64,000 nt of DNA from Catenulispora sp. EB89 (GCF_041261445.1 NZ_JBGCCU010000008.1:62001-126000), one strand, 5' to 3'. Positions 4,223-34,987 are shown, counted from the first letter of the stretch. Notes: a model not told the origin generated them from the letters alone. Made by a program: numbers and translations.

Positions 4223-4246
4223 CCCCTCTGAACCGGGAACCTCGCA

Positions 4247-15554: not shown

Positions 15555-16873
15555 ACGTCCAGGGCATCGAATACGAGGAGTTGGCCGAGCGCTTCGGCAC
15601 GCCCCTCTACGTCTACGACGGCGACGTGCTCACCGAGGCGATCGCCGGGCTGCGCCGAGCGCTGCACCCGGCCCTGGAGTTCTTCTACTCGCTGAAGGCC
15701 AACCCGAACATCAGCGTCTTCGACGTGCTCCGGGCCGGCGGCGCGCGCGCCGAGGTCTCCTCGCTCGTCGAACTGCGCACCGCGCTCGCGGCCGGTGCGA
15801 CGCCCGAGAACATCATCTTCCTCGGCCCGGGCAAGAGCGAGCGCGAGCTGACCGCGTGCCTGGAGGCCGGGATCCACGCGATCGTCTGCGAGTCGTTCGC
15901 GGAACTGGACGAGATCGAGCGTCTCGCCGCCGCGCGCGGAGTGCGTCAGCGGGTGCTGTTGCGGGTCAACCCGGAGGTCGCGATCGGCGGGTCCCGGCTG
16001 ACCATGGGCGGCAAACCCCGCCAGTTCGGCATCGACGAGGCGCAGGTGCTCTCGGCCGGCAACCTGGCGAAGAAGTACGGCCACGCCGACGTGGCCGGCG
16101 TCCAGGTCTACCTGGGCACCCGGATCCTGGACGCCGAGGTGGTCGGCAAGAACACCGCCTACATCCTGGACCTGGCCGACCGGGTGGCGGACAGCACCGG
16201 CATCCGGCTGGACACCGTCGACATCGGCGGGGGTCTGGGTGTCGCGTACTTCGAGGGCGAGCGGGACCTCGACCCCGCCGACCTGGCCGCGCAGCTCAAC
16301 CCGCAGCTGGCGGCGTTCGCCGAGAGCCACCCGGACACCCGCCTGATCATGGAGTCGGGCCGATACCTGGCGGGCAAGGCCGGGACGTACGTGATCGGCG
16401 TGCGCTATGTGAAGGAGTCCATGGGGGAGCGGTTCGCGGTCGCGGACGGCGGCACCCACCACCACATGGCGGCGGTCGGCATCGGTTCCTTCGTCAAGCG
16501 GAACTTCCCGGCGGAGCTGCTGAGCCGGCGCGCAGACCACGCCGACCAGTCCGGCGAGGCTGGGGCGCCCGAGTCCTGGAACGTGACCGGTCCGCTGTGC
16601 ACGCCCAACGACTCGATCCTCAAGCACGCGCAGCTGCCGCCGCTGCGGCCCGGCGACCTGCTCGGCATCCGCTGCTCCGGCGCCTACGGGCCCTCGGCGT
16701 CGCCGGGCCTGTTCCTCAGCCACGGGTTCCCGGCCGAGGTGCTGGTCGTGGACGGCACCGCGCACCTGGTGCGCCGCCGTGACGAGCCCGAGGACCTGAT
16801 GAGCCCGCAGTACCTCTATCGCAGTGCGCTGCCTGTCGAGGGACGCGAACCCGCCGAGACCGTAGCGGTGTGA
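15551..16873 (+). CDS. PLP-dependent aminoacyl-ACP decarboxylase (BtrK-like, alanine-racemase fold)
   Basis: 440 residues of the diaminopimelate/ornithine decarboxylase group. The PLP lysine is Lys49 in FYSLKANPN. Other marks are FLGPGKSE, MGGKPRQFGID, the Gly-rich phosphate loop DIGGGLG, the substrate motif GPLCTPND and a C-terminal CSGAYGPSASP. DGGTHHHMA and PRQFG resemble butirosin BtrK more than free-amino-acid decarboxylases. BtrK decarboxylates L-glutamyl bound to an ACP. The role proposed here is removal of the alpha-carboxylate from an ACP-bound amino acid delivered by the ATP-grasp enzyme encoded just upstream. A second, different member lies at 39144-40409. Confidence 0.85.
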   Translation: MNVQGIEYEELAERFGTPLYVYDGDVLTEAIAGLRRALHPALEFFYSLKANPNISVFDVLRAGGARAEVSSLVELRTALAAGATPENIIFLGPGKSERELTACLEAGIHAIVCESFAELDEIERLAAARGVRQRVLLRVNPEVAIGGSRLTMGGKPRQFGIDEAQVLSAGNLAKKYGHADVAGVQVYLGTRILDAEVVGKNTAYILDLADRVADSTGIRLDTVDIGGGLGVAYFEGERDLDPADLAAQLNPQLAAFAESHPDTRLIMESGRYLAGKAGTYVIGVRYVKESMGERFAVADGGTHHHMAAVGIGSFVKRNFPAELLSRRADHADQSGEAGAPESWNVTGPLCTPNDSILKHAQLPPLRPGDLLGIRCSGAYGPSASPGLFLSHGFPAEVLVVDGTAHLVRRRDEPEDLMSPQYLYRSALPVEGREPAETVAV

Positions 16874-16876
16874 CCT

Positions 16877-17863
16877 GTGTTGCTACCGCCGTCTGTCGAA
16901 AGCGCCGTCGGCCTGTCCAGGGTCTCGGTGAGCCTGCCCCGGTCGACCGATCCCGTGGAGGATCTGCTGGTCCGGGCCGGGCGCGGACCCATGGAACGCC
17001 GGATGTTCGCCAAGGTCTTCGGGCTGCGCCAAAGCCCGACGCTGGCCGCGGACGAGCGAATGGAGGACCTGCTGGTCCGGGCCGGCCTGGACGCGCTCGG
17101 CGGCGAGCCAGCGCAGCTGATTCTGTACGGACACACGCTGCTGAACTCCGACCTCGACAGTGCCGACGCGCGTCTGGACGGGCTGCGCTCCCGGCTCGGG
17201 CAGTCCGACACCGCGTTCTACGGCGTGTCGCACATCAACTGCGCCGCGATGCTGCGCTCGGTGGAACTCGCTCGGCGCTTCCTGACCCGGCCGGGTGCCG
17301 GTCCCGCGGAGCGGGTGCTGGTCCTCGGCGGCGACCAGGCCAGCAGCCACCAGGGCCGGGCGCGGGTCATCCCCGGCGTCGCAGTGCCCGGCGACGCCGC
17401 CGTGGGCGTCATGGTCCACGCCCCGACCACGCGGCGCCGACCGCGCTACCGGTACCTGGGCGGCGCGTCCTCCCGGGACGCCCGCTTCCACCGCAACCAG
17501 CGGATGTCGCCGCCGGAGCTCGGGCTGTTCCAGGAGGCCAGCGGCGAGCAGACGGTGCGCACGCTGCGGCGGGCGGTGGCGGCCGCGAGCCTGACCGTGG
17601 ACCGGGTCGACTGGGTCATGCCGCACCTGACCAGCCGGATGTTCTGGGGCCGGGTCAGCCGGAGCTCGGGCATCCCGAAGGACCGGATCTGCCTGGACCT
17701 GATTCCGGAGCTGGGCCACAACTACGGGGCCGACGCGCTGCTGGCGCTGGAGCACGCCGACCGCTCGGGCCGGCTGCGGCCGGGCGACCGCTGCGTGCTG
17801 TTCGCCATCGGTCAGGGCGCGTACTTCCAGGCGATGGTCGTCGAGGTCGAGGAGGATTCATGA
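16877..17863 (+). CDS. KASIII-like acyltransferase/condensing enzyme (pair 1, catalytic)
   Basis: 328 residues, starting at GTG 16877 just after the decarboxylase stop. The thiolase fold of ketoacyl-ACP synthase III is clear, and a Cys-His-Asn triad can be placed: Cys122 in VSHINCAAM, His250 in VMPHLT and Asn282 in GHNYGAD. The contexts differ from FabH (ACSGF, HQAN, GNTSA), so it belongs to a divergent branch. Such branches in antibiotic clusters often move an acyl group between carriers (CloN2, CerJ) rather than make a beta-ketoacyl chain. Paralogues are at 23156 and 27948. Each block also has a shortened partner without the triad. Start and stop overlap the next gene (ATGA at 17860). Confidence 0.85.
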   Translation: MLLPPSVESAVGLSRVSVSLPRSTDPVEDLLVRAGRGPMERRMFAKVFGLRQSPTLAADERMEDLLVRAGLDALGGEPAQLILYGHTLLNSDLDSADARLDGLRSRLGQSDTAFYGVSHINCAAMLRSVELARRFLTRPGAGPAERVLVLGGDQASSHQGRARVIPGVAVPGDAAVGVMVHAPTTRRRPRYRYLGGASSRDARFHRNQRMSPPELGLFQEASGEQTVRTLRRAVAAASLTVDRVDWVMPHLTSRMFWGRVSRSSGIPKDRICLDLIPELGHNYGADALLALEHADRSGRLRPGDRCVLFAIGQGAYFQAMVVEVEEDS

Positions 17864-18489
17864 GTATCAGTACCTTGTCGCAGGCCGGCATGGCGGAGTG
17901 CGAGAAGGCCGGACGCGAGGAAGGCCTGGCGGCGGGCCTGGCAGCGGTGCTGTCGGGGACGTCGGTCGCCGAGACCGCGCCGGGCCGGTACGCGGCGGTG
18001 CCTGCCGCCGGCGCGGAGGGCGCGGGCCCGGACGGCGGCGCAACGGTGCTCCGTCACCGCCTCGCCGACGCGGAGGGCGTCGTCTTCGTGGAATGCCCGG
18101 GTCAGCACCCTGACGGCGGTCCGACGTGGACCGAGGTGGCCCGGCTGCTGGCCGCGGTCCGGCTCGGCGTGCTGCGCGCCGCCCTCGACCGGGCGGTCGA
18201 GCACCTATCCGGCCGGGAGTCGGGCGGCGAGCCGCTGATCCGCAAACAACTGATCGTCGGCGCGATCGCCGATGTCATGGCGGGCAGTGAAATGCTGCGC
18301 GCCTCCGTGGCGACGCAGGGTGGGCCGGCCGCGCTTGCCGACGTCCACACCCGTCTGGACGTTCTGGGCTGGGAGGTCCTGAAGCTCTTCGGCGCCGCGG
18401 GCTACCTGGCGGAGGGCCCGGGCCGCGCTCTGTACGTGTCCGCGCTCGTGGCGGGCACCTGGGTTCCCCGCGAAGAGGTGTCGGAATGA
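17860..18489 (+). CDS. Stand-alone acyl-CoA dehydrogenase C-terminal-domain protein (copy B)
   Basis: 209 residues with a GGAGG at 17851, coupled to the KASIII gene upstream and to the full dehydrogenase downstream by ATGA overlaps. After an Ala/Gly-rich N-terminus it holds the helical C-terminal domain pattern of acyl-CoA dehydrogenases: LLAAVRLGVLRAALDRA, GGEPLIRKQLIVGAIADV, LKLFGAAGYL. It clearly matches the leftward protein at 11753-12349 (EKAGREEGLAAGLAAVL there reads EEAGRHDGLAAGLAVAL). It lacks the FAD-binding N-terminal and middle domains. The conserved pairing with a complete dehydrogenase argues for a hetero-oligomer rather than a dying fragment. Confidence 0.65.
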   Translation: MSISTLSQAGMAECEKAGREEGLAAGLAAVLSGTSVAETAPGRYAAVPAAGAEGAGPDGGATVLRHRLADAEGVVFVECPGQHPDGGPTWTEVARLLAAVRLGVLRAALDRAVEHLSGRESGGEPLIRKQLIVGAIADVMAGSEMLRASVATQGGPAALADVHTRLDVLGWEVLKLFGAAGYLAEGPGRALYVSALVAGTWVPREEVSE

Positions 18490-19640
18490 TCGAGCTCGAT
18501 GACCAGCTGCGCGCCGTGCGGGACGGCGCGCGCGTGCTGGCTGAGGATCTGCGGGGCCGGGCACTGGCGATCGACGCCGATCCGGAAGCGATGGCAGAGC
18601 ATCTGAACTCCGATGCCTTCGAACTGCTCCGGATCACCGCGACACCCGCGGAGTTCCGCGAGCCGCTGTCCGGCGGTCTGAAACTGCCCGACGGAGCGTC
18701 GCTGCCGGACCGCGGGAACTGCCTGATGAACGTGGTGAGCCTGATCGAGGTCGCCCGGGGCGACATGGCGACCGTGCTGGCCTGCCCCGCCCCGGGCCTG
18801 CCCGGAGTCCTGATCGAGGTACTGGGTGATGCCGCACAGCAGGAGGTGTTCTTCCGGCGGTTGCACGGCGGGCAGACGTGGCCGTTCTTCGCGATGACGG
18901 AGGCCGCGCACGGGAGCGACGCCGGGGCGATGGACACGCGGTTCGAGCCCGACGGTGCGGGCGGCTGGTTGCTGTCCGGCTCCAAGCGGTACGTCGGGAA
19001 CGCGGCGCGGGGCGGAGTGGGGGTGGTCTTCGGACGCACCGGGCGTTCGGCTCTGTCGGTTCGGGCGGCGTTGGTGGAGCTGCCGGCTCCGGGGTGGTCG
19101 GGGACGCGGTTGGACACCGTCGGGTTGCGGGGCGCGTATTTGAGCGAGTTGGTGTTCGACGCCGTGCCGGTGGCACCCGAGATGATGCTGGGTGCGCATC
19201 TGCCGGTGGCGCAGCGGGGGTTGTGGGGCGCTCTGAAGACGTTCAACCAGGTGCGCCTGCACGTCGCGGCCGGTGCGGTGGGGACGGCTTTGGCGATGGT
19301 CGAGTACGTGGGCGAGCACCGCAAAACCGCTCCGGGACTGGACGTGGCGGTCGCGCGGGCCGAGGCCGGACGCGAGGCGCTGTACATGGCGGCGGCGCGG
19401 CTGGATCGCAGTCCGGAGCGGTCGTACTGGTCGAGCGCTGCGAAATTGGCGGCGGTGGAGATGGCCGTGGGCACGGGTCGCTGGGCGGCTCGGGTGATGG
19501 GTCCGGGCGGCTTGCTGGAGCATCCGCTGTTGGAGAAGTGGACGCGGGACGTGTGCGCGTTCGAGTTCATGGACGGCACGAGCAACATCCAGCGGCTGCA
19601 TGTCCAGCGCGGCTATCAGACCGGGGACGCGGATGCCTGA
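18486..19640 (+). CDS. Acyl-CoA dehydrogenase-like flavoprotein (copy B)
   Basis: 384 residues, the normal length for an acyl-CoA dehydrogenase, with FFAMTEAAHGSDAGAMDTR in the middle domain and RDVCAFEFMDGTSNIQRL in the C-terminal domain. As in the paralogues the catalytic-base position reads Asp in MDGT rather than Glu in YEGT. The enzyme should use FAD to desaturate or oxidise a thioester-bound group. In comparable clusters this is prolyl-carrier to pyrrolyl-carrier, or acyl-ACP oxidation. The last third is almost identical in DNA to copy C at 24162-25298, including about 100 bases without a mismatch. Its neighbours are the C-terminal-domain partner before it and an ACP 42 bases after. Confidence 0.88.
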   Translation: MIELDDQLRAVRDGARVLAEDLRGRALAIDADPEAMAEHLNSDAFELLRITATPAEFREPLSGGLKLPDGASLPDRGNCLMNVVSLIEVARGDMATVLACPAPGLPGVLIEVLGDAAQQEVFFRRLHGGQTWPFFAMTEAAHGSDAGAMDTRFEPDGAGGWLLSGSKRYVGNAARGGVGVVFGRTGRSALSVRAALVELPAPGWSGTRLDTVGLRGAYLSELVFDAVPVAPEMMLGAHLPVAQRGLWGALKTFNQVRLHVAAGAVGTALAMVEYVGEHRKTAPGLDVAVARAEAGREALYMAAARLDRSPERSYWSSAAKLAAVEMAVGTGRWAARVMGPGGLLEHPLLEKWTRDVCAFEFMDGTSNIQRLHVQRGYQTGDADA

Positions 19641-19682
19641 CCCGCTCGTCCCGTTTTCACCTGTCGAGGAAAGCGAGTTGTG

Positions 19683-19946
19683 ATGGACCGTGCCGAGATT
19701 CTTCTCCAGCTGCGCAGCAGCCTGTCCGAGGTGCTGAACCGGGAGGTCCCCGAACTGCGGGAGGACGCGCGGCTGTTCGACGACCTGTCGTTGGACTCGA
19801 CCAGCGTCATCGAGCTGCTGATGAGCCTGGAGGACACCGTCGGGCTGGAGATCGACCCCGAGGAGCTGGCGCCCGAGGTGTTCAAGACCGTCGCCAGCCT
19901 GGCCGAGTATGTCGAGGCCGGACTGGCCAAGACCGCGAAGGCCTAG
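19683..19946 (+). CDS. Discrete acyl carrier protein 1
   Basis: 87 residues with a four-helix carrier pattern and the phosphopantetheine Ser in LSLDSTSVIELL. I chose ATG 19683. A GTG is directly in front of it (19680), and GAGGAAAG near 19666 can serve either. The leader, start and first codons are nearly the same as those of ACP2 at 27679, so the two come from one duplication that included the ribosome site. It probably carries the amino-acid-derived substrate of the neighbouring dehydrogenase and KASIII enzymes. Modification by the AcpS-type domain encoded at 20812 is likely. Confidence 0.92.
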   Translation: MDRAEILLQLRSSLSEVLNREVPELREDARLFDDLSLDSTSVIELLMSLEDTVGLEIDPEELAPEVFKTVASLAEYVEAGLAKTAKA

Positions 19947-19954
19947 GGGGATCC

Positions 19955-20815
19955 GTGGAGAGCGGCAAGCCTGAGGGCGCGCGGGCCGGCACGGCCGGTC
20001 TGAGCGTCGAGGCGGTGAGTGCTGCGACGCTCCCGTTCGAGAACTACGTGCCGGTGGACTCCTACGAGCTCGCGGTTCCGCGCTCCCGGCTGGAGCGGGA
20101 GCACGGGATTCCGCCCGAGCACGCCCTGGTGCTGTCGTCGCAGGACTCTGTCTGGGACGGGCCCGGCGTGAGCGGGCTGGCGTTGGCCGGCCTGGGTGTC
20201 CCGGCGGCGGCGCAGCCGCTGTTCCTGGTGCGTTCCGGTCCGCTGCGCGACTCGATGGTCGCGGGGCTGGCCCAGCTGGTGCACGAGTCCGGCTGGGCCG
20301 GCGAGGACCTGGGCATCACGCATCTGGAGGAGCTGGGCGGGACCGCGGTCTTCGATCTGCTGGGCTGGGCCGTTCCGGCGGACACCGGCGCGACCGTCGT
20401 GGTCTGCGACGAGCCGGTGTTCGCCGACGCGCGCGTGCCGGGCCGGTTCAAGGCGGTGGGCCTGCGGCTGCGCCGGGGCCCGGGTCCGCTGCGGGTCCTG
20501 GGCTGCGGCGTGGGTGGACCGGCCGCCGCTGATGGCCCTGACGGCGGTCAGGGGGCTGACGGCGCTGACGGGTCTCAGGGGGCTGACAGCTCTGACCGCG
20601 CCGAGCACCGGTTCTCCGGGCCCGGCCCGTGCGACGGCTGGCTGGCGTTCCACGACGCGCTGGCGGCCGGCGAGGTACGGGACGGCGAGCGCGTCCTGGT
20701 GCACGCGCGCGGTCCGGTGCGCGAGGGCTGGCTGCTGCTGGCGGCCGTGGACGTCGCATCCGTGCGGCTGGCCGACCGCACGGGTCCGATGGCCGAAAGC
20801 GCGGGGTCGCGATGA
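19955..20815 (+). CDS. Shortened KASIII-like partner without catalytic triad (pair 1)
   Basis: 286 residues from GTG 19955. It aligns by eye with the KASIII paralogues. AAQPLFLVRSGPLRDSM matches their AQLILYGHTLL strand and GTAVFDLLGWA matches the stretch before the nucleophile. VVVCDEPVFAD matches the strand after it, and GPCDGWLAFHDALAAG matches the GHNYGADALLALEHA helix. The helix carrying the active Cys is missing, the His segment is absent and the Asn position is Cys. It therefore resembles a non-catalytic half of a heterodimer, as PqsB is to PqsC or a chain-length factor is to its ketosynthase. A Gly/Asp-rich insert (GADGADGSQGADSSD) is unique to this copy. The stop overlaps the next start (ATGA). 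Confidence 0.6.
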   Translation: MESGKPEGARAGTAGLSVEAVSAATLPFENYVPVDSYELAVPRSRLEREHGIPPEHALVLSSQDSVWDGPGVSGLALAGLGVPAAAQPLFLVRSGPLRDSMVAGLAQLVHESGWAGEDLGITHLEELGGTAVFDLLGWAVPADTGATVVVCDEPVFADARVPGRFKAVGLRLRRGPGPLRVLGCGVGGPAAADGPDGGQGADGADGSQGADSSDRAEHRFSGPGPCDGWLAFHDALAAGEVRDGERVLVHARGPVREGWLLLAAVDVASVRLADRTGPMAESAGSR

Positions 20816-21522
20816 GGATCGGCGTCGACCTGATGTCGGTGTCCCGCTTCGCGCGGGTCGCCGAGCACCGCCGCTACCGCGCGCTGGTGTTCACCGAGCG
20901 CGAGCTGAGCGAGGCCGGGCAGCTCGGTTCGGCGCGCTGCCTCGAACGGCTGGCCGGGCGGTTCTGCGTCAAGGAGGCCACCTGCAAACTGCTCGGCCGG
21001 GGCTTCGGCCAGGGGTTGCGATGGCCCGACATCGAGGTCTGCGCCGATGACTGGGGCGCCCCCGCGGTGGCGCTGTCCGGCGGTGCGCGGCGGCTGGCCG
21101 ACGAGGCCGGGATCGGCGATATCGCCGTGGCGCTCACCCACCAGGTGGATCTGGTGATGGCGGTCGCCGCCTCGGACCGGGGCCGCCCGCCGTCCCCCTA
21201 CCGCGCCGCGCCCCGGGAGCAGGACGCGGGCGCCGGGGCGGTCGGCGGGCTGGACGACGTCGCGCGGATGGCGGCGGAGGTGTTCGGCTCCAGCGAGATC
21301 CACGTCGCCGCGGCCGAGTCCTTCGCCGGCGACCTCGGCGCCACGTCCGCGCTGACCATCGAACTGCTGACCCGCCTCGAGGAGCACTACGGCGTGCGGA
21401 TCCCCGAACCGGACTTCTACCAGATGACCGATCTGCCCGGCACCCGCCGGGCGGTGGCGCGGGCGGTGGCCTCGGCCCGGGACGCGGCGAGCGTCCCCGA
21501 GCCGGCGGCCGCGGTCGGCTGA
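20812..21522 (+). CDS. AcpS-type phosphopantetheinyl transferase fused to an ACP
   Basis: 236 residues. Residues 1-120 are a holo-ACP-synthase domain: GVDLMSVSRF with Asp6, and FCVKEATCKLLG with Glu55, the two Mg-binding acids, plus WPDIEV. It moves 4'-phosphopantetheine from CoA to carrier serines. After a Pro/Gly linker, residues about 145-225 form a carrier domain, DLGATSALTIELLTRLEEH. There the usual DSL reads TSA but Ser179 sits at the right place. AcpS normally stands alone as a trimer of about 120 residues. A C-terminal ACP suggests a self-primed carrier dedicated to this pathway. It lies between the partner gene of pair 1 and the adenylation gene, so the adenylation enzyme may load this ACP (inference). 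Confidence 0.85.
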   Translation: MRIGVDLMSVSRFARVAEHRRYRALVFTERELSEAGQLGSARCLERLAGRFCVKEATCKLLGRGFGQGLRWPDIEVCADDWGAPAVALSGGARRLADEAGIGDIAVALTHQVDLVMAVAASDRGRPPSPYRAAPREQDAGAGAVGGLDDVARMAAEVFGSSEIHVAAAESFAGDLGATSALTIELLTRLEEHYGVRIPEPDFYQMTDLPGTRRAVARAVASARDAASVPEPAAAVG

Positions 21523-21542
21523 GAGCACGTGAGGGGATGACG

Positions 21543-23084
21543 ATGAGCAGTCTGGCGCTTGGGACGGAGCCGAGTGTTGCCGAGGACCACCTGCACGGCT
21601 GGTTCCTGCGGAGCGCGCTGGCCGACCCGGAGGCGGTGGCGCTGCGGATCGGCCGGGAGAGCTTCACCTATCGGCGGCTGCACGAACGGGCGCTGGCCCT
21701 GGCCGGCGAGCTGACGGCCCGGCACGCCGAGCACCGGCCGCGCCGCGTCGGCCTGCTCGCGTCCCGCAGCGAGCAGGCGTACGCCGGGATCCTGGCCGCC
21801 GGCTACGCGGGCGCCGCGGTGGTGCCGCTCAACCCGGAGTTCCCGGCCGAGCGCACCGCGCGGATGATCGCCGCCGCTGAGCTGGACGCGCTCGTGGTCG
21901 ACGAGTCCGGCCTGGCCGTCGTGCCGCGGGTCGCCGAGGTGCTGGCCGGAGTGCCGGTCGTGCACGAGCCGGGCGGCGCCGCGCCGCTGGAGCGGCCCCG
22001 CACGCCCGGCCCGGAGGACACCGCCTACATCCTGTTCACCTCGGGATCCACCGGACGCCCCAAGGGCGTGCCGGTCCTGCATCGCAACGTCTGCGCCTAC
22101 CTGCGCTTCGTGCATGACCGCTACCGCTTCGGCCCGGACGACGTGTTCTCCCAGACCTTCGACCTCACCTTCGACCTGGCGATGTTCGACCTGTTCACGG
22201 CGTGGGGCAGCGGCGGGACCCTGGTCTCGGTGCCGCCCCGGGCCTTCGCCTCGGTGGCCGCCTTCGTCGCCAGGCACGGCATCACCGTGTGGTTCTCCTC
22301 GCCGAGCGTGATCCCGTTCCTGCGGCGACGCAGTGCGCTCGGTCCCGACTCCCTGGCCGGACTGCGCTACAGCCTGTTCTGCGGCGAGCCGCTGCTGAGC
22401 CGGGACGCGGCCGACTGGCAGGCGGCCGCGCCGGACTCCGTGGTGGAGAACCTTTACGGCCCGACCGAGCTGACCATCTCCTGCAGCGTGCACCGGTGGG
22501 ATCCGGCGACCTCGCCCGGCCGGTGCGTCAACGACGTCGTGCCGATCGGCTCGCTGCATCCGGGCAGCGAGTACCTGCTGCTCGGCCCCGAGGGGAATCC
22601 GAACCCGGACAACGGCGAACTGTGCGTCACCGGCCCGCAGATGTTTCCCGGCTATCTCGACCCGGCGGACGACGAGGGACGCTTTCTCGACCACGAGGCA
22701 AAACGCTGGTACCGCACCGGCGACCTGGTCCTGCGGCTTCCCGACGGCGAACTGGGCTACCTGGGCCGCCGGGACCACCAGGTGAAGATCCACGGGATCC
22801 GGGTGGAGCTCGCCGAGGTCGAGTCGGCGCTGCGGCGCTGCGCCGGGGTCACCGACGCCGTGGCCGTGGCCGTCGGCGGAGAGCTGTTCGCGTTCTGTAT
22901 CGGCGAACCCCGCCCCGCCGCGGACCTGATGGAGGAACTCGGCGGGTTCTTCCCCCGGGAGCTGATCCCGCGGCGGTACGAGTACGTCGAGGAGTTCCCG
23001 CTCAACGCGAACCGGAAGACCGACCGGCCCGCGCTCGCCGCGCGGGCGGCGAGCAGCCTTTCCCGAACGGAAAGTGAGTTCTGA
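21543..23084 (+). CDS. Stand-alone amino-acid adenylation enzyme
   Basis: About 513 residues. ATG 21543 has GAGGGG six bases upstream; an in-frame ATG at 21537 abuts that site and is less likely. Adenylation motifs are complete: TSGSTGRPKG (A3), NLYGPTE (A5), YRTGDL (A7), the A8 hinge GRRDHQVKIHG and the catalytic Lys in NANRKTDR (A10). A hand alignment to the gramicidin synthetase pocket gives D-L-F-F-L-C-L-I-S-K. From memory that resembles the D-L-L-Y-L-A-L-V-C-K pattern of prolyl-AMP ligases in pyrrole pathways, but one misaligned residue would change this. It makes an aminoacyl-AMP and loads it on a discrete carrier, probably one of those encoded nearby. Confidence 0.85.
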   Translation: MSSLALGTEPSVAEDHLHGWFLRSALADPEAVALRIGRESFTYRRLHERALALAGELTARHAEHRPRRVGLLASRSEQAYAGILAAGYAGAAVVPLNPEFPAERTARMIAAAELDALVVDESGLAVVPRVAEVLAGVPVVHEPGGAAPLERPRTPGPEDTAYILFTSGSTGRPKGVPVLHRNVCAYLRFVHDRYRFGPDDVFSQTFDLTFDLAMFDLFTAWGSGGTLVSVPPRAFASVAAFVARHGITVWFSSPSVIPFLRRRSALGPDSLAGLRYSLFCGEPLLSRDAADWQAAAPDSVVENLYGPTELTISCSVHRWDPATSPGRCVNDVVPIGSLHPGSEYLLLGPEGNPNPDNGELCVTGPQMFPGYLDPADDEGRFLDHEAKRWYRTGDLVLRLPDGELGYLGRRDHQVKIHGIRVELAEVESALRRCAGVTDAVAVAVGGELFAFCIGEPRPAADLMEELGGFFPRELIPRRYEYVEEFPLNANRKTDRPALAARAASSLSRTESEF

Positions 23085-23152
23085 TGCGCCTGTCCGAGAC
23101 CGCGTGGCCGTGCGCCGCGACACCGCCCACGGCCACGGCCGCGGAGGACTGA
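23084..23152 (+). CDS. Possible 22-residue ORF between adenylation and KASIII genes
   Basis: ATG 23084 overlaps the adenylation stop (TGATG), and the frame runs 22 codons to a TGA three bases before the next ATG (23156). The GGAGG inside its end is the ribosome site of that KASIII gene. It may only be a coupling leader that keeps ribosomes moving through the gap. The peptide (MRLSETAWPCAATPPTATA...) has no recognisable feature. Confidence 0.2.
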   Translation: MRLSETAWPCAATPPTATAAED

Positions 23153-23155
23153 ACC

Positions 23156-24142
23156 ATGGCCTACTCTGCGACCGCGTTGGGGGCGGTCGGTCTGTCCCGG
23201 GTGGCCGTCCGGATCCCCAGCCGGGCCGAGCCCGTGGCCGATGTCGTGGCGCGCGCCGGGTACGACGAGCGGGAAGCCCGGAAGTTCAACGCCCTGGGCC
23301 TGCGCACCGTCCTGAGCCTGGCCGACGGCGAGCGGATGGAGGACCTGCTGCTCGACGCGGGCCACGCGGCGCTCGACGGCCGGCCGGCCGCGCTGGTCCT
23401 CTACGGACACACGCTGCTGACCCGGAAGATCGACCTCTGCGACGGCGCGTTCCGGGAGTCGCTACGCGACCGGCTCGCCCTGGGCGAGGCGTCCGTCTTC
23501 GGCGTCTCCCACGTGAACTGCGTCGCCGGACTGCGCTCGATCGAGTTCGCCCGCCGCTTCCTGGCCCGGCGCGGCGGCGCCGCGGACGACCGGGTGCTGG
23601 TGCTCGCCGGCGAGCAGGGCAGCGTCTTCGAGCACACCAGGGTCTTCCCGGGCCGGTCGGTCTCCGGGGACGGGGTGGCCGCCGTCGTGGTCCAGCATCC
23701 CGACGCCGCGGACCGGCCGCGCTACCGGTACCTCGGCGGCGCCGCCAGCCGGGACGCCAGGTTCCATCGCAACCTGCGGATGACCCCGGCCGAGATCGCC
23801 GCGAACACCGAGGTCATCCGGGCGCAGACGCTCGACGTGGTCCGGCGCGCGGCCGAGGACGCGGGAGTGGGCTTCGACGGGATCGACTGGGTGATGCCGC
23901 ACCTGGGGAACCGGATGGTCTGGACCAGCTTCTGCAGCCAGTCGGGCTTTCCGTTCGAGCGGATCTGTCTGGACCTGCTCGCCGAGCGGGCGCACAACTT
24001 CGGCGCCGACGCGCTGATGGCGCTCGAACACGCCGACCGCGCGGGGCGGCTGCGCCCCGGAGACCGCTGCGCGCTGGTGGCCACCGCCCGGGGCGCGTAT
24101 TTCCAGGCGGCGATCGTCGAGGTTTTGGACGACGCGTCGTGA
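23156..24142 (+). CDS. KASIII-like acyltransferase/condensing enzyme (pair 2, catalytic)
   Basis: 328 residues, ATG start with GGAGG ten bases upstream. It is colinear with the copies at 16877 and 27948. The triad is Cys122 in VSHVNCVAG, His249 in VMPHLG and Asn281 in AHNFGAD. Shared block motifs include LYGHTLL, PRYRYLGG and RFHRNLRM. It lacks the FabH-type ACSGF and GNTSA signatures, so an acyl-transfer or specialised condensation role on discrete ACPs is more likely than fatty-acid initiation. Its partner gene is downstream at 25291, with a dehydrogenase gene in between. Confidence 0.85.
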   Translation: MAYSATALGAVGLSRVAVRIPSRAEPVADVVARAGYDEREARKFNALGLRTVLSLADGERMEDLLLDAGHAALDGRPAALVLYGHTLLTRKIDLCDGAFRESLRDRLALGEASVFGVSHVNCVAGLRSIEFARRFLARRGGAADDRVLVLAGEQGSVFEHTRVFPGRSVSGDGVAAVVVQHPDAADRPRYRYLGGAASRDARFHRNLRMTPAEIAANTEVIRAQTLDVVRRAAEDAGVGFDGIDWVMPHLGNRMVWTSFCSQSGFPFERICLDLLAERAHNFGADALMALEHADRAGRLRPGDRCALVATARGAYFQAAIVEVLDDAS

Positions 24143-24161
24143 CAGGGGAGGAAGGACCGAC

Positions 24162-25298
24162 ATGATCGAGCTCGACGACTATTTGCGCGGCGTGCGCGAT
24201 TCCGCGCGCGAGGCGAGCGCCGACCTGCGTTCCCGGGCACTGGCGATCGACGCGGATCCGGACGCGATGGAGGCGCACTTCGACTCCCCGGTCTTCGCGA
24301 CGATCCGGGAGTCCGATACTCCGGCGGAGTTCCGTGAGTCGGCGTCCGGCTTCTCTCGGCCGCCCGACGCCGGCGGCTGCCTGGAGACCGTGGTGGCTTT
24401 CACCGAGACCGCGTGCGGCGACGCGGCGACCGCGTTCGCCTGCCCGGGGCCGGGCCTGGCCGGCGTCATGGTGCGCCTGCTGGGTGACGCGGCGCAGCAG
24501 GAGGTGTTCTTCCGCCGGTTGCACGGCGGCCGGACGTGGCCGTTCTTCGCGATGACGGAGGCCGCGCACGGGAGCGACGCGGGCGCGATGGACACGCGGT
24601 TCGAGCCCGACGGCGCGGGCGGTTGGCTGCTGTTCGGCTCGAAACGGTACATCGGGAACGCCGCGCGCGGCGGCATCGGGGTGGTCTTCGGACGCACCGG
24701 GCGTTCGGCGCTGTCGATTCGGGCGGCGTTGGTGGAGCTGCCGGCTCCGGGGTGGTCCGGGGTGCGGTTGGAGACGGTGGGTCTGCGGGGCGCCTATCTG
24801 AGTGAGCTGACGTTCGAGGGCGTTCCGGTGCCCGGGGAGATGATGCTGGGCGAGCATCTGCCGGTGGCGCAACGCGGGTTGTGGGGCGCCCTGAAGACGT
24901 TCAACCAGGTGCGGTTGCACGTCGCGGCGGCCGCGATCGGCACTGCTTTGGCGATGGTGGAGTACGTCGGCGAGCACCGCAAAAGCGCTCCGGGACTGGA
25001 TGTGGCGGTCGCGCGTGCGGAGGCCGGGCGCCAGGCGTTGTACGCGGCTGCGGCGCGACTGGACCGCAATCCGGAGCGGGCGTACTGGTCGAGCGCGGTG
25101 AAGGTGACGGCCGTGGAGATGGCGATCCAGACGGGTCGCTGGGCGGCTCGGGTGATGGGTCCGGGCGGCTTGCTGGAGCATCCGCTGTTGGAGAAGTGGA
25201 CGCGGGACGTGTGCGCGTTCGAGTTCATGGACGGCACCAGCAACATGCAGCGGCTGCATGTCCAGCGCGGCTATCAGACCGGAGACGCAGATGCCTGA
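24162..25298 (+). CDS. Acyl-CoA dehydrogenase-like flavoprotein (copy C)
   Basis: 378 residues, strong ribosome site (GGAGGAAGG) before ATG 24162. Domain layout and motifs are those of copy B, including MTEAAHGSDAGAMDTR and the Asp-for-Glu change in FMDGTSNMQRL. This copy has no C-terminal-domain partner gene in front of it, so it either works alone or shares the partner of copy B. Long stretches of DNA are identical to copy B towards the 3' end, showing recent duplication or gene conversion. Its stop lies inside the start of the next gene (25291). It is expected to oxidise a carrier-bound intermediate together with KASIII pair 2. Confidence 0.88.
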   Translation: MIELDDYLRGVRDSAREASADLRSRALAIDADPDAMEAHFDSPVFATIRESDTPAEFRESASGFSRPPDAGGCLETVVAFTETACGDAATAFACPGPGLAGVMVRLLGDAAQQEVFFRRLHGGRTWPFFAMTEAAHGSDAGAMDTRFEPDGAGGWLLFGSKRYIGNAARGGIGVVFGRTGRSALSIRAALVELPAPGWSGVRLETVGLRGAYLSELTFEGVPVPGEMMLGEHLPVAQRGLWGALKTFNQVRLHVAAAAIGTALAMVEYVGEHRKSAPGLDVAVARAEAGRQALYAAAARLDRNPERAYWSSAVKVTAVEMAIQTGRWAARVMGPGGLLEHPLLEKWTRDVCAFEFMDGTSNMQRLHVQRGYQTGDADA

Positions 25299-26070
25299 TC
25301 TCAGTGTGGCCGCACTCGGTGTCGCGGTGCTGCCTTCGACCGGCTACCTGCCGCTGCGGGTCGATGTCGCGTCCGCTCCGATCGAGGTGGCGGACCGGTA
25401 CCAGCGCAGGGCCCGCGGCATCCCGGTGGAGCACGCGATGCAGGTCGCCATGGACGACGCCGCGGATTCCGGGGATGAACCGGACGTCGGCGCGCTGGCG
25501 TTGGCGGCGCTGGGCCTGCCCGGGGACGCGCAGCCGCTGTTCCTGGTCCACGACGTGCCGCGGGACTCGATGGTCTCGGCGCTGGCCGGACTGGTGCAGG
25601 GCTCCGGGTGGGTCGGCGAGGACGTCGGCATCACGCAGCTGGAGGAGCTTGGCGGGACCGTCGTGTTCGATCTGCTGGACTGGGCGATGCCCGAGACCGG
25701 CGCCACCGCCCTGATCTGCGACGAGCCTCTGTTCGGAGACACGCGGCTGGGTGGGGCCCGGTTCTGTGCGGTGGCCATGCGGGTGCGCCCCGGCGCGGGG
25801 CCGCTGCGGGTTCTCGACTGCGGTGAGGGCGCGCCCGGAGCGGCGGCCGAGGCGGTGGAGCACCGGTTCGCGGGCACCGGTCCGTGCGACGGCTGGGTGG
25901 ATCTGTTCGACGCGCTGGCCGCCGGTGCGATCGCCGACGGCGAGCGGATCCTGATCGAGGCGCGCACCGCGTTCCGGGAAGGCTGGGTGCTGATCCGGGC
26001 CGAGAGCGCTGCGGACGTGCGACTGGCGCGTGCGCCGGCGCTGACGCCGGATCCGGATCCGGTCCGGTAA
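25291..26070 (+). CDS. Shortened KASIII-like partner without catalytic triad (pair 2)
   Basis: 259 residues. I start it at ATG 25291, eight bases before the dehydrogenase stop. It is the most divergent of the three partner proteins but keeps the family marks: AQPLFLVHDVPRDSM, GITQLEELGGTVVFDLLDWA, ALICDEPLFGD, GAGPLRVLDCGEG and GPCDGWVDLFDALAAG. As in the others, no nucleophilic Cys helix, no PH-type His and no GHN Asn are visible. The partner KASIII gene is at 23156. The role suggested is structural or substrate-gating in a heterodimer. An alternative is an independent small thiolase-fold protein of unknown function. Confidence 0.6.
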   Translation: MPDLSVAALGVAVLPSTGYLPLRVDVASAPIEVADRYQRRARGIPVEHAMQVAMDDAADSGDEPDVGALALAALGLPGDAQPLFLVHDVPRDSMVSALAGLVQGSGWVGEDVGITQLEELGGTVVFDLLDWAMPETGATALICDEPLFGDTRLGGARFCAVAMRVRPGAGPLRVLDCGEGAPGAAAEAVEHRFAGTGPCDGWVDLFDALAAGAIADGERILIEARTAFREGWVLIRAESAADVRLARAPALTPDPDPVR

Positions 26071-26077
26071 CCGCCGC

Positions 26078-26147
26078 GTCGTCGAGGTCGCTGCGGTCGT
26101 CGAGGCGCCGAGATTGTCGAGACCGCTGCGTTCGTCGAGCGTCGAGC
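26078..26147. repeat. Imperfect 18-base direct repeats after KASIII partner 2
   Basis: About four copies of an 18-base unit, GTCGTCGAGGTCGCTGCG, with drift, fill the first half of the 138-base gap before the monooxygenase gene. Copies begin near 26078, 26096, 26114 and 26131, each containing TCGTCGAG or TTGTCGAG. A small CCGCC-cga-GGCGG palindrome follows downstream. Purpose unknown. Confidence 0.6.
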
Positions 26148-26208
26148 GCCGAGCGGCCCGGCGAGATGCATCCGCCCGAGGCGGGTCCTGTCACAGGAGG
26201 TTGATTCC

Positions 26209-27459
26209 ATGTACGACGCCGTGGTCGTGGGCGCCCGATGCGCTGGTGCCGCCACCGCGCTGCTGCTGGCCCGCGCCGGACGGCGCGTGCTGGTGGTCGA
26301 TCGGGCGGCGTTCCCGCGCGACACCATGTCCACCCTGTACATCCAGCGGCGAGGCGTGGGGTATCTGGACCGTTGGGGTCTGCTCGATCAGGTCGCCGCG
26401 GTGTGTCCCGCCCTGGACCGGATCAGCTATCAGATCGGCGACGTCCGTCTCGAAGGCTTCCCCCGGCCGGTCGACGGGATGCGGGCGGCGTACGCGCCCC
26501 GGCGCTACAGCCTGGACGCGATCCTGGTGGAGGCGGCGGTGGCCGCGGGCGCCGAGTTCCGCGAGTCCTGCTGCGTCGAGGACCTGCTGTACGCCGGGGA
26601 CCGGATCACCGGGGTGCGGCTGCGCTCGGGCGGCGCCCTGCTCGACGAGCCCGCGCGCCTCGTCGTCGGCGCGGACGGCATGCGGTCCACGGTCGCCGCG
26701 CGCGTGGGGGCGACCGATCTGGTGCGCGACCCGCCGCAGACCTGCGTCTACTACTCGTTCTGGGCCGGTGCCGCCGACCACTTCGAGCTCTACGAGGCGC
26801 CCGGCCGGTGGGTCGGTGCGGTACCCACCAACGACGGCCTGACCCTGGTCCAGGCGTACTTCCGGCAGGACGAGTTCTCCCGGGTCCGCGCCGACGCGCC
26901 GGCCGCGTACCTGGAGAACGTCCGCACCACGGCTCCCGAGCTCTACGAACGGATGCTCGCGGGCGGGCAGGCCGGACGGCTGTACGGCACCGGGGACCAG
27001 CGCAACTTCTTCCGCACGGCCGCCGGTCCCGGCTGGGCCCTGGCCGGCGACGCCAGCCACCACCGGGACTCCATCACCGCCCGCGGCATCACGCACGCGT
27101 TCCTCCAAGCCGATCTGCTGGCCGGGCTGGTCGCCCCGGTGCTCGACGACCCGGCCCGGCTGGACGCCGCCCTGGCGCGCTACGCCCGGGAACGGTACGA
27201 CGCGCTGCTCGGCGACTATCACAGGACCCTGAGCACGGCGCGGCTCGCCGTGCCCTGGCACCGGGTCGGGATGCTGCGCGAGGTCGCCGCCGATCCCGTG
27301 CGGGTCGAGGAGTTCTTCTCCGCGATGGCCGGCGCGCCGCGGTCCGGGGCCGGCAGCCTGACCGGTGCCGGCACCGGCACCGGCACCGACGCGGACGCCG
27401 CGCAGTCCGTGCGGCAGGCGATCGCGTGGATGCGCGATGCCCGGCGGGTTCGCGTGTGA
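26209..27459 (+). CDS. FAD-dependent monooxygenase/oxidoreductase (group A fold)
   Basis: 416 residues with a strong AGGAGG before ATG 26209. It begins with a Rossmann FAD site (DAVVVGARCAGAATALLLARAG). It has the second FAD motif VVGADGMRSTVAARVG and the third GWALAGDASHHRDS, as in aromatic hydroxylases, geranylgeranyl-reductase-like enzymes and halogenase relatives. There is no WxWxIP halogenase motif. An expected role is NAD(P)H-dependent hydroxylation or epoxidation of a pathway intermediate; the substrate is unknown. A Gly/Thr repeat lies near the C-terminus (GTGTGTD). It lies between blocks 2 and 3 of the KASIII genes and is followed by a 219-base gap that may contain a promoter. Confidence 0.82.
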   Translation: MYDAVVVGARCAGAATALLLARAGRRVLVVDRAAFPRDTMSTLYIQRRGVGYLDRWGLLDQVAAVCPALDRISYQIGDVRLEGFPRPVDGMRAAYAPRRYSLDAILVEAAVAAGAEFRESCCVEDLLYAGDRITGVRLRSGGALLDEPARLVVGADGMRSTVAARVGATDLVRDPPQTCVYYSFWAGAADHFELYEAPGRWVGAVPTNDGLTLVQAYFRQDEFSRVRADAPAAYLENVRTTAPELYERMLAGGQAGRLYGTGDQRNFFRTAAGPGWALAGDASHHRDSITARGITHAFLQADLLAGLVAPVLDDPARLDAALARYARERYDALLGDYHRTLSTARLAVPWHRVGMLREVAADPVRVEEFFSAMAGAPRSGAGSLTGAGTGTGTDADAAQSVRQAIAWMRDARRVRV

Positions 27460-27678
27460 GCGGGCCTCGGATCCGCCGGATCGCCCCCATCGCCGGATGC
27501 CGGCGACGTGGGCGGGCTGTGCCGTGCCGTGCGGTGCCGCCGTGCGGGTCCAAGGAACGGCAGAAAGCTGTCAACGGCCTGGTCATTGACCGTGTACGGG
27601 ACCTGCTGGCTAGATGAGTGCGGGCCCTCAGCACAGCACGAGGTTGGCCTATTCACCAGTCGAGGGAAGCGAGTTGTG
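27460..27678 (+). promoter_or_regulatory. Gap with possible internal promoter and palindrome before ACP2
   Basis: The 219-base gap contains TTGACC (27586-27591), 19 bases, then TAGATG (27611-27616), a fair match to a vegetative actinomycete promoter. The -35 sits inside a short palindrome GGTCA-t-TGACC (27581-27591), which could be an operator. The last 25 bases before ACP2 repeat the ACP1 leader almost exactly (GTCGAGG-AAGCGAGTTGTG). I see no gene in the gap. Confidence 0.4.
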
Positions 27679-27942
27679 ATGGACCGTGCAGAGATTCTCG
27701 TCGGGCTGCGCAGCAGCCTGTCCGAGGTGTTGAACCGAGAGGTTCCCGAACTGCGGGAGGACGCGCGGCTGTTCGAGGACCTGTCGTTGGACTCGACCAG
27801 CGTCATCGAGCTGCTGATGGTCCTGGAGGACACCGTCGGATTGGAGATCGACCCCGAGGAGCTGGGTCCCGCGGTGTTCAGCACCGTCGCCAGCCTGGGC
27901 GACTACATCGAGGCCGCGCTGGCCAAGACCGCGAAGGCCTAG
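27679..27942 (+). CDS. Discrete acyl carrier protein 2
   Basis: 87 residues, nearly identical to ACP1 at 19683: both have LSLDSTSVIELLM around the phosphopantetheine Ser, and both end ALAKTAKA or GLAKTAKA. Differences cluster in helix 1 (VGLRSS for LQLRSS) and helix 3 (GPAVFSTV for APEVFKTV). These surfaces often decide partner choice, so the two ACPs may serve different KASIII pairs. The ATG has the same AGGGAAGCG leader as ACP1. It is the first gene of the third block, five bases before the KASIII start. Confidence 0.92.
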   Translation: MDRAEILVGLRSSLSEVLNREVPELREDARLFEDLSLDSTSVIELLMVLEDTVGLEIDPEELGPAVFSTVASLGDYIEAALAKTAKA

Positions 27943-27947
27943 CCGCC

Positions 27948-28967
27948 GTGCTGAGTCAGGCCGCTGCGAGCGCCGCGGGACCGGCCTCGGAACCGGCCTT
28001 GGGATCGGACTCGGGCATTGGACTGTCCCGGGTGGCGGTCCGGCTGCCCGGCGGGGTCGAGTCGGTGGACGCGATCCTGGAGCGGACCGGCAGCGGGCCC
28101 CGGGAGCGGCGGATGTTCGCCAAGGTGCACGGGCTGCGCGACAGCCCGACGCTGGCCGAGGACGAGAGGCTGGAGGACCTGCTGGTGCGGGCCGGCCGGG
28201 CCGCGCTCGACGGCCGGCCCGCCCAGCTCGTCCTGTACGGGCACACCCTGATGTACACCGAGGTCGAAATGGGCGGCGCGTTCCGGGACCGGTTGCGCGA
28301 GCGGCTGGGCGTGCCCGGTGCCGTCCTGTCCGGCGTCTCGCACGTCAACTGCGTCTCGGTGCTGCGCTCGGTGGAGCTCGCCCGCCGCTTCCTGGGCCGG
28401 CCCGGTGCCGACCCCGCGGACCGGGTGCTGGTGCTCGGCGGGGACCAGGGCAGCCGCTACGACCGGGCCCGGGTCACGCCCGGCCTCACCGTGGCCGGGG
28501 ACACCGTCGCCGCGGTCCTCGTCCAGGGGCCCGGCGCCGGGCGTCCGCGCTACCGGTACCTCGGCGGCGCGCTCGTCCGGGACACCCGGTTCCACCGCAA
28601 CCTGCGGATGTCGCAGGCCGAACGCGTGGGCTTCGCCGACGCCGTCCGGAACCAGGTCGTGCACGCCGTCCGCGCCGCGGCGCAAGCCGCGGGCCTGGAC
28701 CTGGAGCAGGTCGACTGGGTGATGCCGCACCTGTCCAACCGAACGATGTGGCGAGGGTTCTGCAACGACGCGGGATTCGCCTGGGACCGGATCTGCCTGG
28801 ACCTGATCGCCGAGCGCGGACACAACTTCGGTACGGACGCGCTGATGGCCCTGGAGCACGCCGACGGTGCCGGCCGGCTCAGCCCCGGCGACCGGTGCGC
28901 GCTGGTGGCGGTCGGTCAGGGTATGTACATCCAAACAGTGATCGTCGAAGTCCAGGAGGACTCGTGA
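27948..28967 (+). CDS. KASIII-like acyltransferase/condensing enzyme (pair 3, catalytic)
   Basis: 339 residues from GTG 27948, five bases after the ACP2 stop. It has an N-terminal Ala/Pro/Ser extension of about 22 residues absent from the other two copies; the alignable part starts at GIGLSRVAV. The triad is Cys135 in VSHVNCVSV, His261 in VMPHLS and Asn293 in GHNFGTD. It shares LYGHTLM, PRYRYLGG and RFHRNLRM with its paralogues. The tight linkage ACP2-KASIII-partner makes this the simplest complete block. It ends in a GTGA overlap with the partner gene, arguing for equal synthesis of the two proteins. Confidence 0.85.
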   Translation: MLSQAAASAAGPASEPALGSDSGIGLSRVAVRLPGGVESVDAILERTGSGPRERRMFAKVHGLRDSPTLAEDERLEDLLVRAGRAALDGRPAQLVLYGHTLMYTEVEMGGAFRDRLRERLGVPGAVLSGVSHVNCVSVLRSVELARRFLGRPGADPADRVLVLGGDQGSRYDRARVTPGLTVAGDTVAAVLVQGPGAGRPRYRYLGGALVRDTRFHRNLRMSQAERVGFADAVRNQVVHAVRAAAQAAGLDLEQVDWVMPHLSNRTMWRGFCNDAGFAWDRICLDLIAERGHNFGTDALMALEHADGAGRLSPGDRCALVAVGQGMYIQTVIVEVQEDS

Positions 28968-29815
28968 GGGGCGGCGAGCCGCGGAACGCGGAGATCGGTA
29001 GCGCGGCGAACGGGAGCGCGGCGAACGGGAGCGCGGGTCTGAGCGTCGAGGCGCTCAGCGCGGCGACGCTTCCCTTCGAGAACTACGTGCCGCTGGACGC
29101 CGTCGGGCCGGACGTGGTCGTGCCGGACACGGCCATGTGGGCCCGGCTGGAGCGGGACCACGGCATCCCGCGCGAGCACGTGCTGGTGATCCGCCCGCCG
29201 GGCGAGGACGACACCGAGGGCTGGCCCGGGCCCGACGTGAGCACCCTGGCCCTGGCCGGCCTCGGCGCCCCGGCGACGGCGCAGCCGCTGTTCCTGGTGC
29301 GTTCCGGTCCGCTGCGCGACGGGATGGTGGCGGCGCTGGCCCAGCTGGTGCACGAGTCCGGCTGGGCCGGCGAGGACGTCGGGCTCACCGATTTCGAAGA
29401 GCTGGGCGGGACCGCCGTCTTCGGCGTGCTGGAGTGGGCCGTCCCGGAGCGGACCGGGGCGACGGCGGTGATCTGCGACGAGCCGGTGTTCATCGACGCG
29501 CGCGTGCCGGGCCGGTTCCAGGCGGTGGGCCTGCGGCTGCGCCGGGGCCCGGGTCCCCTGCGCGTCCTGGGCTGGGGCGAGGGCGCTCCGGACGACGGTC
29601 CCGGCTGGGCGGAGCACCGGTTCTCCGGCCGCGGCCCGTGCGACGGCTGGCTGGCGTTCCACGAGGCGCTCGCGGCCGAGAAGGTGCGGGACGGGGACCG
29701 CGTGCTGATGCACGCATGCGGTCCGCTGCGCGAGGGCTGGCTGCTGGTGGAGGCGGTGGACACCGCGTCGGTACTGCTCGGCGGCGACGTCGCGCTGATC
29801 GGCGCCGAGTCCTGA
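28964..29815 (+). CDS. Shortened KASIII-like partner without catalytic triad (pair 3)
   Basis: 283 residues from GTG 28964, which overlaps the KASIII stop and has AGGAGG upstream. After an Ala/Asn/Gly/Ser repeat (GSAANGSAANGSAG) the body is close to partner 1: LSVEALSAATLPFENYVPL, AQPLFLVRSGPLRDGM, AVICDEPVFIDARVPG and GPCDGWLAFHEALAAE. The active-site Cys helix, His segment and Asn are again missing. The direct GTGA coupling to a catalytic KASIII gene is the best single piece of evidence that these proteins are stoichiometric partners. A strong hairpin follows the stop. Confidence 0.62.
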   Translation: MRGGEPRNAEIGSAANGSAANGSAGLSVEALSAATLPFENYVPLDAVGPDVVVPDTAMWARLERDHGIPREHVLVIRPPGEDDTEGWPGPDVSTLALAGLGAPATAQPLFLVRSGPLRDGMVAALAQLVHESGWAGEDVGLTDFEELGGTAVFGVLEWAVPERTGATAVICDEPVFIDARVPGRFQAVGLRLRRGPGPLRVLGWGEGAPDDGPGWAEHRFSGRGPCDGWLAFHEALAAEKVRDGDRVLMHACGPLREGWLLVEAVDTASVLLGGDVALIGAES

Positions 29816-34947: not shown

Positions 34948-34987
34948 CAGTGTGTTGATCACTGCCGCAGTGTGCTGATCACCGCCG
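34948..34987. repeat. Two tandem 20-base repeats across the acyltransferase stop
   Basis: CAGTGTGTTGATCACTGCCG (34948-34967) is followed at once by CAGTGTGCTGATCACCGCCG (34968-34987), with two mismatches. Each contains the palindrome TGATCA. The second copy includes the stop codon of the leftward acyltransferase gene. It could be a slippage duplication or a protein site. Confidence 0.75.

Follow-up and report, generated by a model that had tools for sequence, protein, structure and literature searches.

The stretch of DNA analysed here (the window: 64,000 nucleotides, C8:62001-126000, within the 11.9 Mb assembly of a soil actinomycete) contains three genes for proteins resembling 3-oxoacyl-ACP synthase III (KASIII), named KS1, KS2 and KS3, and three genes for shorter proteins, SH1, SH2 and SH3. 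On balance we favour a reading in which the KS proteins are Cys-His-Asp acyltransferases, probably forming heterodimers with the SH proteins, that take part in the assembly of a dehydro-amino acid unit. Genes were called from GC content by codon position and from translation. KS1 (16877-17863), KS2 (23156-24142), KS3 (27948-28967), SH1 (19955-20815), SH2 (25291-26070) and SH3 (28964-29815) all show coding-type codon bias, and all lie on the plus strand in a single long row of genes, which runs from a freestanding condensation domain (starting at 12547) to the end of SH3. The cassette formed by these genes is closest in identity to contigs of Catenulispora. An earlier note on this DNA had listed three KASIII-like and three shorter proteins at these positions, and all six open reading frames are real.

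KS1 and KS2 are 58-60% identical to KS3, and the three proteins match the Pfam family ACP_syn_III_C with E-values of 8e-14 to 1e-15 (1.3e-15 for KS1 and 8.1e-14 for KS2). Against the curated FabH model TIGR00747 they score 24-31 bits for a cut-off of 292, and they remain far under all curated FabH models. The KS proteins were aligned with 27 relatives and then with 44, including proteobacterial sequences, and the residue counts given here are from the latter set. Cys135, His292 and Asp297 are invariant (44/44), while the FabH-type histidine (His261) is found in 32 of the 44 relatives and the corresponding asparagine (Asn293) in 23. His261 is replaced by Asp in the Amycolatopsis orthologues, by Gly in one Catenulispora protein and by Gln in one protein from Streptantibioticus. 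At position 293, Asn gives way to Ser in Kutzneria and often to Cys in Proteobacteria. The Cys-His-Asn triad which the earlier note ascribed to the three proteins is therefore present in them, but it is not conserved in their family, where the invariant triad is Cys-His-Asp.

In a profile search of the PDB, the invariant GHxxxxD motif (His292/Asp297) aligns to GHVGAGD of CerJ and GHLGGGD of DpsC. The transfer triad of ChlB3 is Cys113-His296-Asp301, with an equivalent one in CerJ (PMC9573744), and the five-residue spacing between His and Asp is identical in ChlB3 and in the KS family. The structures closest to an AlphaFold2 model of KS3 are ChlB3, NatS, DpsC and CerJ (Z 33.8-32.5), with FabH next, within about 1.5 Z units. 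The likeness to CerJ and ChlB3 extends from the triad and its spacing to the overall fold, and ChlB3 transfers acyl groups between carriers; it is however a dimer of identical chains with no degenerate partner, and the overall sequence identity to KS3 is about 20% (PMC9573744). Since Cys, His and Asp are invariant while the FabH-type His and Asn vary, acyl or aminoacyl transfer is likelier than decarboxylative C-C bond formation. Judging from these alignments and the model, the KS family is likely to consist of KASIII-like acyltransferases of the CerJ, ChlB3 and AfcL kind, as opposed to decarboxylating synthases. The candidate role of FabH-like starter synthase is weakened by the variability of positions 261 and 293.

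The SH proteins are a pseudo-KASIII family which has no entry in the libraries searched: SH1-3 gave no above-threshold match in Pfam or NCBIfam, and SH3 gave none among PDB sequences. SH1 is 71% and SH2 50-54% identical to SH3. SH3 was modelled with AlphaFold2 from an input alignment of SH homologues only (predicted local distance difference test score 77, predicted TM-score 0.80). A Foldseek search with this model returned KASIII structures at a probability of 1.0 (ChlB3 was best, 4.5e-7, followed by CerJ, PqsBC, DpsC and FabH), and VIA-align gave Z-scores of 16-17.6 against HMG-CoA synthase, DpsC, ChlB3 and PqsBC. The proposal that the short proteins are KASIII-like is borne out by these fold searches, which rule out that they are related to acyl-CoA dehydrogenases (ACAD) or have an unknown fold. 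In the model, the N-terminal KASIII half is kept and most of the C-terminal half is gone, after which the last helix and two strands return; the C-terminal part of the SH sequences aligns to the KS family in profile comparisons (E 0.002 and 0.00024). The placement of SH3 also rests on the tree described below, the fold of SH1 on its homology to the SH3 model, and that of SH2 on its homology to the SH family.

The family, sampled from 13 species and the window, comprises 20 sequences and has 34 invariant columns, a degree of conservation which rules out that the SH genes are truncated KS pseudogenes. The helix that would carry the catalytic cysteine is shortened in the SH3 model (residues 152-159) and contains no Cys, the position of which appears to be occupied, in ungapped register, by an invariant Glu146. 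The His-bearing stretch of the C-terminal half is missing, and the Asp equivalent to Asp297 of the KS family (Asp227 in SH3) is retained in 19 of the 20 sequences. It was thus correctly noted that the catalytic Cys and the His-bearing part had been lost, while the Cys helix, described as lacking, is only shortened. On the evidence of the model, the SH proteins almost certainly adopt the KASIII/thiolase fold, with a C-terminal half that is shortened and neither catalytic Cys nor His.

Pair 3 is the only adjacent pair, and its genes overlap by four nucleotides (GTGA, 28964-28967), as had been reported; the same direct overlap of KS3 and SH3 is found in C. rubra. KS1 is separated from SH1 by three genes (ACADt, ACAD1 and ACP1) and KS2 from SH2 by one (ACAD2). 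The analogy for pairing comes from PqsBC, in which PqsB lacks the whole triad and forms with PqsC a dimer like the FabH homodimer (PMC4807248). This enzyme shares with the putative KS/SH pairs the combination of an active KASIII protein with a shorter one that has the same fold but no triad; it differs in that PqsC has a Cys-His dyad, in the reaction (condensation of octanoyl-CoA with 2-aminobenzoylacetate) and in occurring as a single pair, and SH3 matches no PDB chain. A second characterised KAS-III heterodimer, which the earlier note did not name beside PqsBC, is LstAB from the lipstatin cluster of the actinomycete Streptomyces toxytricini, where an active subunit is again combined with a diverged one; LstA, however, has a Cys-His-Asn triad, the enzyme joins two fatty acyl-CoA chains, and LstB has an essential Glu60 (PMC12141560). 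By analogy with these enzymes it is probable, as was proposed on the example of PqsBC, that KS and SH form heterodimers. Arg118, which is invariant in the SH family, and the nearly invariant Asp119 would, judging by their position in the sequence, be near the expected interface and could reach into the active site of the partner, as Glu60 of LstB may do.

The remaining genes of the row encode the parts of a carrier-based pathway, with carriers and dehydrogenases as the earlier note had described. The condensation domain (12547-14196, Pfam Condensation 1.4e-23) is followed by an ATP-grasp ligase (14193-15554; ATP-grasp-type NCBIfam matches), which is kept in related clusters and is a candidate aminoacyl-carrier loader with a presumed BtrJ-like role, and by a pyridoxal phosphate (PLP) decarboxylase of the diaminopimelate/ornithine fold (PLPdec, 15551-16873; NCBIfam), a candidate aminoacyl-carrier decarboxylase. 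Between KS1 and SH1 are ACADt (17860-18489, Pfam Acyl-CoA_dh_1 1.4e-8), a truncated ACAD of which only the C-terminal domain is present and which is a possible partner of ACAD1; ACAD1 itself (18486-19640), an acyl-CoA/ACP dehydrogenase by Pfam with NCBIfam matches that include the prolyl-carrier dehydrogenase RedW; and the freestanding carrier protein ACP1 (19680-19946, Pfam PP-binding 1.4e-11). SH1 is followed by a fusion of an AcpS-type phosphopantetheinyl transferase with a carrier domain (PPTase, 20812-21522, Pfam ACPS and PP-binding), the Kutzneria counterpart of which is shorter and seemingly has no carrier part, and by a freestanding adenylation enzyme of the amino-acid type (21537-23084, TIGR01733 1e-99, above the cut-off). 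A second acyl-CoA/ACP dehydrogenase (ACAD2, 24162-25298, Pfam) precedes SH2, and an FAD-dependent monooxygenase or oxidoreductase (26209-27459, Pfam FAD_binding_3) and a second carrier, ACP2 (27679-27942, 87% identical to ACP1), precede KS3. In butirosin biosynthesis, BtrJ and BtrK are an ATP-grasp loader and a PLP decarboxylase for an amino acid held on a carrier, which resembles the set found in the window; to our knowledge, the butirosin side-chain route involves neither a KASIII nor an acyl-CoA dehydrogenase.

Downstream of SH3, a regulator is followed by a carrier, ACP3 (31262-31543, plus strand, Pfam PP-binding), and an acyl/aminoacyl ligase, Lig2 (31536-33215, plus strand, TIGR03098), and then by an ABC transporter, an acyltransferase preceded by ketosynthase remnants (34979-36865, minus strand), which is a candidate carrier-to-PKS loader, a second PLP decarboxylase of the BtrK/TIGR03099 type (39144-40442, minus strand) and a type I polyketide synthase (PKS) from 40826 onward. 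TIGR03098 and TIGR03099 are models that NCBI names 'exosortase A system-associated'. Upstream of the row, and transcribed divergently from it, are a third acyl-CoA dehydrogenase (ACADr, 10422-11756, minus strand) and a second truncated ACAD-like protein (11753-12529, minus strand), a homologue of ACADt by profile match. ACADt next to ACAD1 and the 11753-12529 protein next to ACADr are parallel combinations of an active enzyme and a reduced relative, and this arrangement is conserved across clusters.

An SH profile scan of genome contigs identified 14 loci in 13 species: C. rubra (two contigs), Streptantibioticus, two Kutzneria, seven Amycolatopsis and two Streptomyces. As far as their sequence extends, some being cut by contig or locus ends, all 14 have in common a cassette of Cond, ATP-grasp ligase, PLPdec, ACP, KS, ACADt, ACAD, SH and PPTase. 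Among 395 genomes of the class, the only convincing SH matches are in the window's own genome (two hits are at about 1e-3), which indicates that the family is rare, and no SH match was obtained in plasmids. The Amycolatopsis loci also carry a different degenerate KASIII-like protein of 287 amino acids, which belongs to the P1 family described below, and a second, divergent KASIII (L013 2578-3534 and orthologues; 33% identity to KS2) in which Cys-His-Asp is kept and a Cys stands at the Asn position. The latter is the nearest relative of the KASIII of S. decoyicus (38-39%), where a minimal set beside a nonribosomal peptide synthetase (NRPS) consists of KASIII, ATP-grasp ligase (48%), PLPdec (62%), ACP, P1, ACADt and ACAD.

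Searching plasmids with KS3 identified KASIII proteins in Tritonibacter, Agrobacterium vitis, Rahnella and Rhizobium, with homologues of PLPdec (43-47% identity), ACAD, ACP and Lig2 in their neighbourhoods and an ACADt homologue in most of them. In all four, the gene for P1, a protein of 283-303 amino acids, lies immediately upstream of the Cys-His-Asp KASIII gene; the two usually overlap, since in Tritonibacter, A. vitis and Rahnella P1 runs over the start codon of the KS gene, and the Rhizobium pair is present though not separately annotated. P1, from which the Cys has been lost, can be aligned with the KS family across 214 columns (E 4e-6). An hhalign comparison of SH and P1 gave an E-value of 0.29, which does not support common descent beyond the shared fold. 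In Tritonibacter (L029 8700-11135) and Rhizobium (L032 13231-15654) the PLP decarboxylase is fused to an ACAD, from which it follows that both probably act on one carrier-bound substrate. On a replicon of Burkholderia cenocepacia (L043), an ACAD and an ACP are followed by two KASIII pairs (12232-14237 and 18804-20803) around homologues of Lig2 (51%) and of the second PLP decarboxylase (53%); both pairs begin with a gene whose product has lost the Cys and end with one whose product retains Cys, His and Asp. It is to this Burkholderia set that ACP3, Lig2 and the second PLP decarboxylase of the window are closest. In the literature, no named product for the window cluster and no paper on the Rahnella or A. 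vitis clusters was found.

From these parts the following route can be proposed. Each KS would pair with an SH, which, having no nucleophile, would form the second half of the dimer. An amino acid would be loaded onto a carrier by the ATP-grasp enzyme or an adenylating ligase, and the PLP decarboxylase would strip the alpha-carboxylate from the carrier-bound amino acid. Cys135 of the KS would receive an acyl or aminoacyl chain from a carrier as a thioester, which would then be passed either to the amine of a carrier-held amino acid, forming an amide bond, or onto the next carrier. The ACADs with their truncated partners would introduce the double bond, so that an enamide-type unit (a dehydro-beta- or gamma-amino acid) results, and the finished unit would be passed on to an assembly line for polyketides or peptides; delivery to the PKS would probably involve either the condensation domain or the acyltransferase encoded at 34979. 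The analysis shows the folds, the invariant triad, the conservation of the cassette and the pairing in related clusters. That a dehydro-amino acid unit is the output of the cassette is a prediction which we consider slightly better than even, and heterodimerisation, amide formation, the order of steps, the amino acid used and the product are likewise inferred.

The closest precedents are from Burkholderia. The bolagladin cluster of B. gladioli produces dehydro-beta-alanine with a VinN-like ligase (BolO), an ACP (BolC), a BtrK-like decarboxylase (BolN) and an ACAD (BolQ), deletion of the ACAD gives a saturated product, and two KASIII homologues have been proposed to form the amide (PMC7756342). 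In the biosynthesis of AFC-BC11 (afc), a dehydro-beta-alanine trimer is built on one carrier, and the KASIII-like AfcL, which has Cys/His/Asp, holds the peptidyl chain as a thioester and makes a peptide bond (PMC12186527). The window shares with the bolagladin cluster the set of ligase, ACP, PLP decarboxylase and ACAD together with KASIII homologues, and with afc the carrier, aminoacyl ligase, PLP decarboxylase, dehydrogenases and Cys/His/Asp KASIII-like acyltransferases. As in these two clusters, carrier, BtrK-type PLP decarboxylase, ACAD and KASIII-like enzyme are clustered in the window, and likewise in L043; the counterpart of the VinN-type, Asp-loading ligase of such cassettes could be Lig2, in view of its L043 homologue, or the loader could be the ATP-grasp enzyme instead. 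There are also differences: in BolM and BolP the Cys, which the window KS retain, is replaced by Ser/Thr; bolagladin contains one dehydro-beta-alanine and involves an NRPS, where the window has three KS and a PKS; and unlike afc, the window combines ligases with an ATP-grasp enzyme, has two carriers that are nearly identical and three KS accompanied by SH, and includes truncated ACADs and an adjoining type I PKS. The carrier-to-carrier route, which the earlier note regarded as undescribed, therefore has known counterparts for its list of parts, while the pairing with degenerate KASIII-like proteins was not found described in the available portions of the two papers (PMC7756342, PMC12186527).

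Several observations weigh against the reading favoured here, in which the KS are acyltransferases paired with SH, and they have to be considered together with three rival explanations, which partly overlap. The window KS were likened to BolM, BolP and AfcL from their descriptions, as opposed to direct sequence comparison, and the first ketosynthase of the PKS loading module (40826-49375) is KSQ-like (DTGQSSS), so the unit may not be the PKS starter. In addition, KS1-3 all retain the FabH-type His and Asn, which keeps decarboxylative condensation within their reach. They could accordingly be condensing heterodimers like PqsBC or LstAB, in which C-C bonds lengthen an aminoacyl chain (decarboxylatively with a malonyl-carrier or not) before dehydrogenation; both of these, the KASIII heterodimers of known function that were found in the literature, condense carbon chains, and OleA structures are also near the KS3 model. 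This seems unlikely to us, since the residues in question are replaced in orthologues from whole cassettes (Asp, Gly or Gln for His261, Ser or Cys for Asn293), among them those of every Amycolatopsis locus, the residues that never vary are the acyltransferase ones, and the cassette has no ketoreductase or dehydratase. Gene order speaks against pairing as well: the gene directly before SH is an ACAD in 16 of 20 cases and a KS in only two. The KS could then be ordinary homodimeric acyltransferases, as is ChlB3, a close fold match, and SH could have another role, for example shielding carrier-bound substrates or handing them to the dehydrogenase; that KS outnumber SH in several clusters would also fit. 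We consider this improbable given the KS3-SH3 overlap in the window and in C. rubra, the analogous overlap of P1 with the KS start codon, the fact that the KASIII fold of SH normally dimerises with its like, and the presence of ACADt, a truncated relative with which the dehydrogenase is already provided.

The numbers of KS and SH genes, which are not one-to-one but range from 1:1 to 2:1, also count against dedicated pairs (3:3 in the window, 4:3 in C. rubra, 4:2 in Streptantibioticus, 2:1 in Kutzneria, 2:2 in Streptomyces and 2:1 in Amycolatopsis), as do the phylogenies, which are discordant: KS3 groups with KS2 (96/96), while SH3 groups with SH1 (100/98), and constraining SH3 to group with SH2 is rejected (approximately unbiased test, p-AU 1.6e-5). 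The same test rejects a clean duplication of a KS-SH unit, so that the description of the genes as three paralogous pairs finds no support. The discordance indicates that pair 3 came together from a KS3 that is older and a copy of SH1, probably with ACP1 copied along; an ancient gene conversion between SH1 and SH3 is an alternative that could mimic such a history. The Streptantibioticus orthologue of KS3 has no SH of its own. One SH could thus be shared by several KS, with the three copies reflecting dosage or shuffling of the locus: the 2:1 and 4:2 ratios of the relatives would fit, as would an SH3 that is a recent copy of SH1 and yet stands beside the sister of KS2. We regard this as possible but doubtful, since the strong divergence of SH2 suggests some specialisation, and it is compatible with KS-SH heterodimers acting in acyl transfer.

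Only recently, with AFC-BC11, have KASIII-like enzymes been shown to form peptide bonds. If the heterodimers of KS and a catalytically dead partner are real, they would constitute a defined enzymatic unit that makes amides between freestanding carriers, would explain several 'hypothetical proteins' in clusters of two phyla, and would provide a genome-mining handle for enamide-type natural products, namely a degenerate KASIII beside a Cys-His-Asp KASIII, a BtrK-type decarboxylase and an ACAD. A likely mis-annotation is also corrected, as genes named 3-oxoacyl-ACP synthases bear an acyltransferase triad. The paired sets in unrelated bacteria hint at a widespread and little-studied assembly route for natural products. 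Tentatively, and with less confidence than for the window itself, a Cys-His-Asp KASIII with a dead KASIII-like subunit might be a general design for carrier-to-carrier amide formation, shared by Actinobacteria and Proteobacteria. Its dead partners would belong to two or more families, SH and P1, that show no recognisable kinship in sequence; a cluster would hold as many as three pairs, and the design would replace NRPS condensation domains for dehydro-amino acid chains. At the left edge of the window (344-9487), a protein kinase/FHA protein and a CHAT-domain protein are encoded, which are apparently unrelated to the cluster.

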